In this document: one piece after another, positions 1,359 to 55,015 of the stretch
Numbering within the stretch: position 1 is the first letter of the stretch
Layout of the letters: every line of letters begins with the position of its first letter
Assembly (NCBI GenBank): GCA_902623175.1
Contig: CACNSR010000008.1
Location: forward strand, 1-64,000
Length of the DNA stretch: 64,000 bases
Direction: 5' to 3'
From: Halieaceae bacterium
GTDB taxonomy: Bacteria > Pseudomonadota > Gammaproteobacteria > Pseudomonadales > Halieaceae
Position numbers and translations under genes: made by a program
The notes under the pieces: generated by a model
The model's database searches: none
The model's input: only the letters and a program-made list of their open reading frames with translations
Told to the model about the DNA's origin: nothing

Positions 1359-1435
1359 AGGACCATAGCTCAGTTGGTTAGAGCGCTACCTTGACATGGT
1401 AGAGGTCGGCGGTTCGAGTCCGCCTGGTCCTACCA
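1359..1435 (+). tRNA. tRNA-Val (anticodon GAC)
   Basis: A complete 77-nt cloverleaf. The acceptor stem AGGACCA pairs with TGGTCCT, followed by A73 and an encoded CCA (1433-1435). The D-arm reads GCTCAGTTGGTTAGAGC. The anticodon stem CTACC/GGTAG encloses the loop TTGACAT, so the anticodon is GAC (valine). The T-arm GGCGG/CCGCC encloses TTCGAGT. The body resembles E. coli tRNA-Val(GAC). Its 3' half, from the anticodon loop onward, is the part that recurs in decayed form in the repeats at 6929, 23150, 37488 and 48229. This suggests the gene has served as an integration target. Confidence 0.97.
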
Positions 1436-1538
1436 AAATAGATATAAGTCATCGATTTATCTGAAATCGCACCAGCCACGGTAGACAAAAACCGCCCAAT
1501 TTAGGGTATTGATCTACTAGCGATGAACGGAGGTCTAT

Positions 1539-1766
1539 GTGACTACCTCTCGAGAAGTAACAGAGGCTTGGATCGCCTCTAAAGAGCACTGTGCCGGCTC
1601 ACTGGGCCGCATTCAATTTCTACTCTCGATACCAGTTTTAATGTGTCCACGCGTCTCTTGGTGCGACTGTAAGCATGAACTTTTATATCCTGAATTTGTC
1701 TTAAAATGCAGGAAAGTAACGAAAGAACCTCAATGTAATAAACCTGACCTACCATGCTATACCTAA
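1539..1766 (+). other. Dubious 75-codon open frame behind the tRNA
   Basis: It starts at GTG 1539, preceded by GGAGG at a good distance. The frame runs through the repeat fragment at 1645-1665, and the protein has an odd composition, with seven cysteines in 75 residues and no domain I know. The N-terminal stretch VTEAWIASKEHCAGSLGRI faintly resembles the start of a tyrosine-recombinase core-binding domain, but that is a guess. I think it is more likely chance or a decayed remnant than a working gene. Confidence 0.2.
1645..1665 (+). repeat. Fragment of the tRNA-Val-linked repeat (left arm only)
   Basis: These 21 bases match the first 21 bases of the copy at 37488 with one mismatch. Only the left arm is present. 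The tRNA-like 3' half that follows in the fuller copies is missing here. It lies about 210 bp downstream of the intact tRNA-Val, in the same orientation as all the other copies. Confidence 0.6.
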
Positions 1767-1935
1767 AAATAAAAAACAGTATCCGACTTCACAGTCGCCC
1801 GCCTCCCTTAAAATGTCGCTTATATCCCACATCCCGGCACCATTTAGGTACCGGACAGGGCAGCATCTCCGCTACTGATGCGGTGATGACTCAATTTCAT
1901 CTTTAACCACTTTTAGTTAATAGGGAGGGATCTCT

Positions 1936-53600: not shown

Positions 53601-54157
53601 AGCACCTCCTGCACGTTAGCCGGCGCCAGTACAGGCACAGAGGCGCCAATGAACATGTGTTCAGACTGGTGGGGCAGGGTCGAGGATTTGCAGGCGTGGT
53701 CATCACCTGCCACCGCGAGCACACCACCATAGCGAGACGTGCCAAAGGCGTTCGCATGCTTTATGACGTCCATGCTCCGGTCAACGCCAGGGCCTTTGCC
53801 GTACCACATCCCAAAAACACCATCGAAGCGCGCGCCCTCGGACAGGTTGGTCTGTTGGCTGCCCCACACCGATGTCGCAGCAAGGTCCTCATTAACGCCC
53901 GGCTGGAAGTGAATCTGGTGGGCGTCGAGGTATTCGGTAGCTTTCCACATGGCTTGATCGACGCCGCCCAGAGGGCTGCCACGATAGCCAGAGACGAAGC
54001 CCGCAGTATTGAGACCTCGCTTCAAATCCCTTTTTCTTTGCAGCATTGGAAGGCGAACCAGCGCCTCAATGCCAGTCATGTACGCGGATGTGTGGTCGTG
54101 AGTGTACTTGTCGTCCAGTGACACTCTCCGCAACGGCGGTCGCTCTGCCTGCCCCAT
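50663..54157 (-). CDS. Indolepyruvate ferredoxin oxidoreductase, fused single-chain form
   Basis: 1164 residues combining all parts of indolepyruvate:ferredoxin oxidoreductase. The N-terminal pyrimidine-binding domain has GYRGSPLGGVDQAM. The thiamine diphosphate domain includes FCSGCPHNTS and GGEGATWIGQ. A ferredoxin-like 4Fe-4S segment holds CEGCGDC and further cysteines up to SCLKGFCPSF. The gamma domain has AGIGGTGVLT. The C-terminal 350 residues are the extra domain of proteobacterial fused forms. The enzyme oxidatively decarboxylates aryl- or branched-chain 2-oxo acids to acyl-CoA, reducing ferredoxin. The ATG at 54157 has AGAGG eight bases upstream and is preferred to ATG 54181. It diverges from an Lrp-type regulator, a common pairing for control by amino acids. 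Confidence 0.95.
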   Translation of the reverse strand: MGQAERPPLRRVSLDDKYTHDHTSAYMTGIEALVRLPMLQRKRDLKRGLNTAGFVSGYRGSPLGGVDQAMWKATEYLDAHQIHFQPGVNEDLAATSVWGSQQTNLSEGARFDGVFGMWYGKGPGVDRSMDVIKHANAFGTSRYGGVLAVAGDDHACKSSTLPHQSEHMFIGASVPVLAPANVQEVLDLGIFGWELSRYSGCWVGLKAITENMDSAISADINSDRVDIIIPEEFELPADGVHARWPDKPLQQELRLNKYKIYAAREFARVNRLNRLVLDSSNPRFGIITSGKAYLDVMQALEDMGITEAIGAEIGIRVFKVGMPWPLEPRLTHDFAEGLEEILVVEEKRSIIEDQLTSQLYNYPVGSRPRVVGEFDEVGRDLLTNVGELTPAMVALVIADRIRGFFSSELLEQRIRWIEEKEKSLAAPYQTIERVPHFCSGCPHNTSTKVPEGSHALGGIGCHYMATWMPDRPTHTFTQMGGEGATWIGQAPFTETQHVFQNLGDGTYFHSGTLAIRAAVAAGVNITYKILYNDAVAMTGGQPVDGSLSIGDLIRQLSGEGVRRIALVSDAPEDWRGRFDTIPGFSLTHRDQYEALMLELREFKGTSVIVYQQTCAAEKRRRRKKGKMRHADRRVVINEAVCEGCGDCSVESNCLSVLPKQTVLGKKRQIDQSACNHDFSCLKGFCPSFVSVVGGELRKTQPAQSAEPIFDPLPQPDLPSLDQPWNTVVAGIGGTGVLTITSLIAMAAHIEGKGCATLNQTGLAQKFGAVVSHVRVASAQDDIKAVRIPAGEADLLIACDLVVSTGYEAMGKVAHGRTHAVINDNEQPTAAFVQDPDVHFPAGGMRQKVIAQVGEKLEFIHASDIALQLTGDAIGTNLFMLGYAWQRGWVPVGEPALERAIELNGVAVEFNKNAFLLGRRFANQPELVESLLPQESSNTDAEFTLDQVIEDRFQRLVAYQSVGYAQRYLDQIEKVRCVDRDPEAGDSLTHTVALQLFKLMAYKDEYEVARLHSDDAFRAKLNAQFTGNYSIRFHLAPPLLSKADPNTGKAKKYEFGSWLMPMFRILAKLKWLRGTRWDVFALTSERRQEREDLARYQADLAKVCDLLAPDNYRAAQQLMKLPEKLRGYGHVKARNRQALLAARSQLLSEFYGDTQYIEVAHKIAA

Positions 54158-54294
54158 GTGCTTGCCTCTTTGCTCAAGCATGCCTCGGGATATTATGGGT
54201 CGCGGAGACGGGGGAATTTATCTTAAATATTTGCCTCGCAGCCATGAAACGCATAAAATACCCTTTTATATGATTTAAAAAGATATTTTTATTC
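54158..54294. promoter_or_regulatory. Divergent promoter region, oxidoreductase and Lrp
   Basis: Strongly AT-rich from 54220 to 54294, with A and T runs of the kind Lrp/AsnC proteins bind. No single operator can be defined by eye. Confidence 0.45.
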
Positions 54295-54768
54295 ATGATT
54301 ATTGATTCAACCGACAAGAAACTGCTCAGCTTGCTTCAAGAGGACGCCAACATCAGCACCTCGGCACTGGCGGAAAGGTTGCACATCTCACAGTCCCCTT
54401 GCTGGCGGCGCATTAATCGGCTGGAGGAGCAAGGGATCATTCAAAAGCGAGTCGCGGTGTTGGATCGCGAAGCGCTTGGCATGAGTGTTGTGGTATTTGC
54501 GACCGTTAATCTGACCCAAACGGGCAGACAAAACCTGATCGAGTTTGAGCAGATGATCAAAGGCCATCCCGAGGTATTAGAGTGCTACACGATGACCGGC
54601 ATCTGGGACTACGTCCTCAAGATCGTCACGCGCGATGTCCGACACTACGAGGACTTTGTCAGGAACACGCTGAGTGCGAGCGACTTGATCAGAGAGCTAC
54701 ATTCACACGTCGCCGTGACAGAAATTAAGAACACTTCCGCGCTGCCCCTGGCCGCACAACTAGGCTAG
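54295..54768 (+). CDS. Lrp/AsnC family regulator
   Basis: 157 residues. The N-terminal helix-turn-helix (LLSLLQEDANISTSALAERL, then ISQSPCWRRINRLEEQGII) and a C-terminal RAM ligand-binding domain (VLECYTMTGIWDYVLKI) give the standard architecture. These regulators sense amino acids and form octamers. Facing the indolepyruvate oxidoreductase gene, it probably controls aromatic amino acid catabolism. Confidence 0.92.
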   Translation: MIIDSTDKKLLSLLQEDANISTSALAERLHISQSPCWRRINRLEEQGIIQKRVAVLDREALGMSVVVFATVNLTQTGRQNLIEFEQMIKGHPEVLECYTMTGIWDYVLKIVTRDVRHYEDFVRNTLSASDLIRELHSHVAVTEIKNTSALPLAAQLG

Positions 54769-55015
54769 CGAGGCGCACTGAGCGTCTTTCGCGTGATCCT
54801 AGTTGCCTTCCCAAACCGCTAGAGCCTGTGTTTTTGTTCACCTTTATTTTTTCGAAATCGTACGTTTTAACGTGTTTCTTTGCGTGGACACTATCGCGGC
54901 AAGGGATTGATCAAAGCCCAACGGGCGAATCTCACGCTAATTTCGCCAAGCTTAAACATTAGACTTTGGCACACAAGTTACGGCATGCTCTAGTAACATC
55001 TGAGTCAACCTACAC
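54769..55015. other. Intergenic region with a decayed right-flank copy
   Basis: 247 bp between Lrp and the small membrane protein, containing the fragment at 54820-54905. No gene or terminator was recognised. Confidence 0.5.
54820..54905 (+). repeat. Decayed right flank of the tRNA-linked repeat
   Basis: The sequence GAGCCTGTGTTTTT, then TCGTACGTTTTAACGTGTTT, then GCGTGGACACTATCGC aligns with the right flanks at 7006-7089 and 37565-37651. The hairpin is broken here: CACTATC has no exact partner. The left arm and tRNA half cannot be recognised. It has the same orientation as the other copies and marks the end of the amidinohydrolase/oxidoreductase module. Confidence 0.7.

Follow-up and report, generated by a model that had tools for sequence, protein, structure and literature searches.

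The window analysed here, bases 1-64,000 of the 98,804-bp contig CACNSR010000008.1 (G000:C8), belongs to the genome of a Halieaceae bacterium (G000; 2.39 Mb in 65 contigs, 85% complete). It carries a tRNA-Val(GAC) gene followed by partial copies of that gene, and between these copies lie seven gene modules, M1 to M7. The copies, the short integrase remnant beside the tRNA and the corresponding arrays of related species were studied by comparison with 57 genomes of the genus (G000 included) and 293 genomes drawn from the order. The features of the attachment region are listed below; the left-end types were assigned by simple regular expressions.

1359..1435, + strand: tRNA-Val(GAC), the attachment gene (ARAGORN and Rfam); the 3' part shared with the copies starts at 1389
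1436..1538, + strand: element left end of type B, the integrase-gene leader; a similar leader lies between tRNA-Val and the intact integrase gene in G006, G047, G050 and G069
1539..1622, + strand: integrase stub, comprising the initial 28 codons of a tyrosine integrase (PF00589 family), with a GTG start
1643..1665, + strand: left-arm fragment of a collapsed element, without a tRNA 3' half; 22-bp match (95%) to the 37,485 copy
6926..7008, + strand: attR scar 1, a full copy with the left arm and a decayed tRNA-Val 3' half
7008..7089, + strand: type A left end, AT-rich, then GGGGACAC and a hairpin; scar and end are 87% identical to the 37,485 copy over 167 bp
20665..20717, + strand: attR scar 2, degenerate and partial; corresponding junctions are present in G021 and G063
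23148..23230, + strand: attR scar 3, a full copy; ARAGORN calls the 23,150 copy a tRNA
23227..23265, + strand: type C, terminator-type left end; the same type stands directly 3' of the intact tRNA-Val in G010, G016, G041 and G054
37485..37567, + strand: attR scar 4, with a decayed tRNA 3' half; a type A left end follows, to 37,651
48226..48308, + strand: attR scar 5, a full copy
54823..54912, + strand: type A left end without a recognised preceding scar, at the decayed M6/M7 boundary
68,298, + strand: attR scar beyond the window on the same contig, a full copy

In a full copy, a left arm of about 32 bp runs directly into the 3' half of tRNA-Val(GAC), and the two meet in the anticodon loop. The copies read ...GTGTCCACGCGTGTCTTGGTGCGGCCAATCGG up to the joint and CCTTGACATGG...CCA beyond it, the right part corresponding to the stretch of tRNA-Val that opens with the final two bases of the 5' anticodon strand and closes with CCA. 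The four fuller copies described in the initial annotation were recovered at 6926, 23148, 37485 and 48226, each on the + strand with the left arm and the tRNA-Val 3' half, and its interpretation of the junction as the far end of an inserted element is retained, since the copies read as attachment-site scars. Of its three fragments, the one at 20665 is a degenerate copy, whereas the one at 1643-1665 contains no tRNA sequence and the one at 54,823-54,912 matches the sequence after the 6926 and 37485 copies and represents the element's other end.

The search of G000 at E≤0.01 gave seven matches, all on this contig and on one strand, namely the five full copies, the tRNA-Val and the arm fragment at 1643-1665. 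The degenerate 20,665 copy was not listed at this threshold, so equally decayed copies elsewhere could escape. Scattered copies on both strands, named beforehand as the observation that would speak against a stack, were not seen. A 34-bp pattern across the arm/tRNA joint, with up to 3 mismatches, gave 4 matches and none in 100 dinucleotide shuffles, by which a chance origin of the copies was ruled out. Relatives also have a second, unrelated left arm, for which the shared tRNA-Val sequence begins only at TTGACATGG; the natural reading is therefore a crossover in the seven-base anticodon loop TTGACAT, which in the window would fall at 1391-1397. This second arm was seen on the tRNA-Val 3' half at G018:C28 (9502 and 19,944), at G060:C261 (8069) and, weakly, at G001:C7 (106,053), implying another integrase family at the same tRNA-Val site.

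Left-arm matches were detected in 29 genomes, some of them weak or doubtful. The counts given here rest on the fetched contigs with listed matches, some listed matches being unfetched; they include some fragments, G063:73,244 and 73,200 are one place, and G041:C38 is doubtful. Matches of about 30 bp to query positions 39-69 were left aside except G046:C54, which is another tRNA gene. Nine of the fetched contigs carry both tRNA-Val and one or more scars, and all the scars there (23/23) were located downstream of the tRNA and on its strand. Similarly, on 12 contigs with at least two scar matches and no tRNA, the matches share one strand per contig (36/36). The T-stem pairs at all five positions, G-U allowed, in 36 of the 46 full-length matches other than tRNA-Val, a set which includes G046:C54, and it occurs in the variants GGCGG/CCGCC, GCCAG/CTGGC, CCCAG/CTGGG and CCCGG/CCGGG. 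In the 12 genomes with both a scar and tRNA-Val, the T-stem of the scar was identical to that of the genome's own tRNA-Val in 20 of 24 cases. Three exceptions (G063:94,616, G006:2,095,265 and G001:16,412) would be halves from earlier elements of another lineage; the fourth, G058:C167, looks decayed.

The integrase stub shares 74% amino acid identity with the intact integrase of G069 (residues 2-28, E 4e-7). An intact tyrosine integrase of about 296 amino acids was found in 5 of the 57 genus genomes (G069, G047, G050, G006 and G005), starting in all five about 50-105 bp 3' of tRNA-Val(GAC); the intact family members are 54-100% identical to the G069 integrase. Stubs ending at about residue 23-28 are present in G000, G021, G063 and G040, and G001 carries a 70-residue integrase fragment at a contig end. 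In G069, tRNA-Val lies at 750,684, the integrase at 750,863 and one scar at 776,177. In the order-wide set, 3 of 293 genomes matched the integrase at E≤1e-30. In G235 (intact) and G277 (one in-frame stop) the integrase adjoins tRNA-Val; the match in G331 is distant, with no tRNA within the fetched stretch. The enzyme is classed as a phage integrase by both Pfam and PHROGs, and it aligns to positions 165-443 of 611 of PHROG 1, so that the N-terminal part of the profile is missing.

No PF00589 match was obtained on the window contig, and the sole match to the tRNA-Val integrase in G000 was the stub. Three further PF00589 proteins of 330, 416 and 568 amino acids are encoded on contigs C14, C6 and C21 of G000. 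The initial annotation was correct that no intact integrase lies in the window, but its description of an accretion without an integrase has to be amended by the stub at 1539-1622.

In G006, G047 and G069, an open reading frame (ORF) of about 200 amino acids has a 4-base overlap with the integrase gene at the stop codon of the latter. It gave no Pfam or PHROG match in G006 and G069, the two tested, and is a candidate excision factor. The integrase-bearing tRNA-Val element of G047 contains two alkaline phosphatases, and that of G069 encodes proteins with matches to the defence models HmaA and HmaC. A relative of the PD-(D/E)XK gene that precedes tRNA-Val at 144-1010 of the window, with 48% identity, sits at G069:C1:771,389-772,225 within the integrase-bearing tRNA-Val island.

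The viral scan with a single integrase query detected no relative. With an integrase alignment as the query, 16 loci were obtained, one of which is a full-length relative. On this IMG/VR contig (L148, 9.7 kb), a 54% identical integrase starts about 105 bp after a tRNA-Gly(GCC), and a second tRNA-Gly 3' half is located about 9 kb further along. The genes between them match a capsid/prohead protease, a tape measure protein, a small terminase and a helicase/primase-like AAA ATPase. L148 looks like a satellite, possibly a phage satellite, or the remnant of a prophage, which uses a site of this same type.

The modules between the scars were characterised by Pfam. The protein scan covered 40 window proteins, 39 of them downstream of tRNA-Val; six small ORFs (five in M7) and the part of M7 beyond the window were left out.

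1936..6758, + strand: M1, an ABC transport operon with an ABC ATPase, an ABC permease/auxiliary protein (PF09822, DUF7088) and DUF4340
7100..20469: M2, S15 and S9 peptidases, a TonB receptor (two ORFs), two TetR regulators, GMC oxidoreductase, major facilitator superfamily (MFS) transporter, class-III aminotransferase
20840..23065, + strand: M3, a prolyl oligopeptidase of family S9
23511..37292: M4, TonB receptor, aldehyde dehydrogenase, AMP-ligase, histidine phosphatase, short-chain dehydrogenases/reductases, P450, TetR, a PEP-utilising pair
37809..47827: M5, DUF3604, MFS transporter, AMP-ligase, TonB receptor, LysR, acyl-CoA dehydrogenase
48492..54768: M6, DDAH/arginine deiminase-like protein, M20 peptidase, a 1172-residue POR/DUF6537 protein, Lrp/AsnC regulator
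55016..64000, continuing to 68,055: M7, cyclases, SpoIIE phosphatase, TonB receptor (Pfam of four proteins)

TonB receptors were found in M2, M4, M5 and M7 and helix-turn-helix regulators in M2, M4, M5 and M6. The initial claim that most modules have a regulator and a TonB receptor was therefore generous, each being present in 4 of 7 modules among the scanned proteins. The TonB receptor of M2 (11285-13538) is divided between two overlapping ORFs with the plug and the barrel separate, suggesting a frameshift or a sequencing error. Conjugation or mobilisation genes, as in integrative and conjugative elements (ICEs) or integrative and mobilizable elements (IMEs), were not recognised among the 40 scanned window proteins.

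The order of the modules differs between the species. In G000 the order is M1 M2 M3 M4 M5 M6 M7. In G021, M1 is followed by a 1.9-kb unit (124,847-126,754) with a single annotated gene of the PF00144 family, then by M4 and by a gene of about 703 amino acids together with M3. In G063, the order is M1, a 7-gene unit, a gene of about 715 amino acids with M3, M4, another unit and M6. M3 and M4 thus swap places between G021 and G063. M2, M5 and M7 were absent from the compared array stretches of these two genomes. The genes flanking M7 are 112 bp apart in G063, and no recognisable scar of an exact empty site was found in these 112 bp. M5 is represented in G021 by a collinear 10-kb cluster (81-87%) on another contig of 16.5 kb, on which no scar was detected, and by partial copies in G063 and G051; not every module is therefore bound to the array. 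At the DNA level, three of the 57 genus genomes, that of the window included, carry M1 with 99-100% identity; the genus-wide module searches covered M1 and M5.

The modules also differ in age. Block 20666-23229 (M3) is 88.7% and block 23143-37555 (M4) 95.1% identical to G021, and M6 is 88.8% identical to G063. The fourfold-site divergence of M1 between G000 and G021 or G063 was 0.6-1.7%. The corresponding values were 14.6-15.7% for M3 of G000 (20.6% to G043), 1-18% (G021), 15-34% (G063) and 31-54% (G065) for M4, and 20-31% (G063) and 22-26% (G058, two genes) for M6. In the distal region at 68.4-75.3 kb the divergence reached 30-70% (G021, G063), and in the gene upstream of tRNA-Val it was 46.5% (G021). 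The silent-site divergence tends to rise away from tRNA-Val, as stacking predicts, with few partners per step. For comparison, the identity to G021 is 67-77% over one core stretch of 10 kb, with no match in the incomplete G063, and 80.5% in the gene region upstream of the tRNA. Between G021 and G063, the conserved upstream flank is 74-78% identical; in G063 it stops 44 bp short of the tRNA, and in G021 about 9 kb that G063 lacks lie between this flank and the tRNA. From the tRNA to the M1 scar the identity of the two is 98.4-99.4%, with about 0.2 kb unassembled.

These results are read as a tRNA-Val(GAC)-anchored stack of integrated elements built by tandem accretion, to which we assign a probability of about 0.92. 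The accretion proposed initially is supported by the single-strand scars, by the integrase beside tRNA-Val in relatives and by the reordered modules. Relatives in which all the modules are ancestral, the other observation named in advance as contradicting it, were not seen; the modules are present, absent or reordered at attachment-site boundaries. In the proposed mechanism, a short tyrosine integrase would recombine the anticodon loop of tRNA-Val with the attP of an element, composed of the left arm, a tRNA 3' half and the left end. The tRNA would receive a new 3' half from the element, and the displaced half would come to lie at the far end, behind the element's left arm. If insertion at one tRNA recurred, module and scar would alternate on a single strand. 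The window junctions were probably made by the tRNA-adjacent integrase family. As the tRNA-proximal integrase gene is cut to 28 codons, presumably by deletion, the window modules are without an integrase, resembling cis-mobilizable elements (CIMEs). Such modules would move via an integrase acting in trans or by recombination between the scars.

Several observations weigh against this stack in its simplest form. The left end of M1 in G000 (1437-1587) is only 83-86% identical to G021 and G063 and the rest 95-100%, which means that the shared block in G000 starts inside the stub and not at the tRNA; a contribution of homologous recombination is probable at this point. At 6926, the tRNA 3' half shows decay and kinship with that at 37,485 even though M1 is recent, so this half is not simply the one displaced by M1. 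Terminator-type ends also occur inside arrays, which pure last-in-first-out stacking does not predict. With these internal terminators and the non-monotonic decay of the window scars, pure last-in-first-out stacking is not fully supported. The divergence within M4 is heterogeneous, and M5 occurs outside any recognised array in G021. One of the three PF00589 proteins elsewhere in G000 might also be the active enzyme. The decayed 6926 half, the internal terminators and the left end of M1 suggest insertion at, or recombination between, scars besides the tRNA.

A stack built by the integrase may by now be shuffled mainly by homologous recombination between the scars of about 80 bp and the shared left ends, after DNA uptake or transduction, with the integrase having no current role in G000. 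This has a considerable, though less than even, chance of being correct. It would account for the near-identity of the integrase-less M1 in three species and for the left breakpoint of G000 inside the stub, for the different order of M3 and M4, and for two terminator-type ends in G047 that are 98.5% identical over 259 bp. However, the identity between G021 and G063 steps at the tRNA and at the scar, as site-specific recombination predicts, and intact integrases still adjoin tRNA-Val. Short diverged repeats are poor substrates for homologous recombination, and the scar pairs inside G000 are about 80-93% identical over 70-100 bp. The cassette-like behaviour suggested initially is sustained for its outcome, with units gained, lost and reordered, but the mover may be either the integrase or homologous recombination.

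A further possibility, which we consider unlikely, is that the scars themselves are reusable sites. Whatever DNA is enclosed by two scars, with chromosomal clusters such as M5 and host tRNA terminators among it, could then be excised, reinserted, reordered and traded among species by an integrase in trans, perhaps from capsid-encoding satellites with an integrase of the same family.

A dispersed repeat, such as a miniature inverted-repeat transposable element or a tRNA-derived short element transposed into intergenic gaps, would explain a similar short sequence in several such gaps, but it was rejected as highly improbable because, within the search sensitivity, the detected copies are confined to the tRNA-Val contig and one strand, and the array is anchored at tRNA-Val in several species, with module boundaries coinciding with the copies and the integrase beside the tRNA. 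A chromosomal integron or superintegron with tRNA-like attC sites deserves hardly any credence either: the array units each end in a recombination site and some are below 2 kb (G021, 124,847-126,754), but the sites are host tRNA 3' halves, the target is a tRNA gene, 6 of the 7 window modules are multi-gene and the integrase matches phage integrase families, so that it was rejected on the type of site and enzyme, without IntI-specific or attC models being run.

Two further properties of the left ends were examined. In seven type A ends of one group the best 16-base match to the left-arm motif averaged 14.4, against 10.0 for shuffled arms (maximum 13), and in the nine type A ends of the window's group 10.4 against 10.1; the groups were split by the string GAGTT, which itself belongs to the motif that was matched, and this biases their comparison, from which nothing is concluded. 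An inverted 12-mer in the window's type A group (n=10) gave a mean of 9.1 against 8.1 in shuffled sequences, the largest of 60 shuffles being 8.7, a modest difference. The type A assignment is probably wrong for G000:68,297 and G058:C167. Separately, a hairpin-rich repeat of about 110 bp, in two sequence types, breaks tRNA 3' halves in the T-loop after TTCGA. It was located at G002:C3 3675 and 35,428 (L025, L026) and in scars of G001, G004, G043, G046, G047, G049, G054, G055, G058 and G065. A similar sequence follows the tRNA-Val terminator in G010, G016 and G041. One copy compared with Rfam gave no family for the insert, with just a sub-threshold match outside it.

CIMEs are integrase-less units between att sites, and ICEs and IMEs can accrete in tandem at one site. 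The window modules share this arrangement: they are stacked at a single location, have att sites at both ends and contain no recombination gene of their own, although some left ends are unrecognisable. Tycheposons of Prochlorococcus are reportedly marine elements with a tRNA-targeting tyrosine recombinase and nutrient cargo. The G047 element with its alkaline phosphatases and the related integrase in the capsid-gene element L148 are similar to them. Traits of tRNA islands and additive flexible genomic islands (fGIs) were also found: a direct duplicate of the tRNA 3' part at the distal ends, except at the M6/M7 boundary, an integrase beside the tRNA in some members (5/57), and modules present, absent or reordered between relatives at the repeats.

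The closest parallel is provided by the ssrA islands of Dehalococcoides (PMC3146451). There, tandem catabolic islands lie downstream of one tRNA-like gene, bounded by short 3'-end repeats; an integration module is next to attL in 16 of 31 islands and missing in 15, and the islands are read as accretion and CIME. Most features are common with the window stack except the enzyme class and the target, a serine recombinase and the tmRNA T-loop in Dehalococcoides and a tyrosine integrase and the tRNA-Val anticodon loop in the window. In contrast to Dehalococcoides, the hosts here are Halieaceae-like marine gammaproteobacteria and the modules are common to several species. Additive islands are described, in the portions of the reports used, for Alteromonas fGI1, where a conserved tRNA is the insertion target for gene cassettes of varying number (PMC4119200), and for Methylophilaceae fGI-2 at a tRNA (PMC10872708). 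Unlike these, as far as those portions extend, the window scars also carry the left arm of the element, and the integrase family, the stub and the module ages were traced here. Among the titles and abstract openings listed by the full-text literature searches, none described tRNA-Val arrays in this group, by which absence is not proven.

The principle is already known from the Dehalococcoides ssrA islands, the additive islands and the CIMEs; the history here is unusually readable. Modules, several of them metabolic, have been stacked one by one behind a single tRNA, leaving a layer-by-layer archive of how ocean bacteria have gained genes. Some of the modules recur in related species, where their order and age differ, so the stack lends itself to being read as a history of gene exchange. 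The displaced tRNA halves often keep the T-stem of their source and, together with the silent-site divergence of each module, make the donor clade and the relative age readable. A question raised by the stack is whether metabolic modules that lack an integrase pass from one species to another by using the integrase of a different element.

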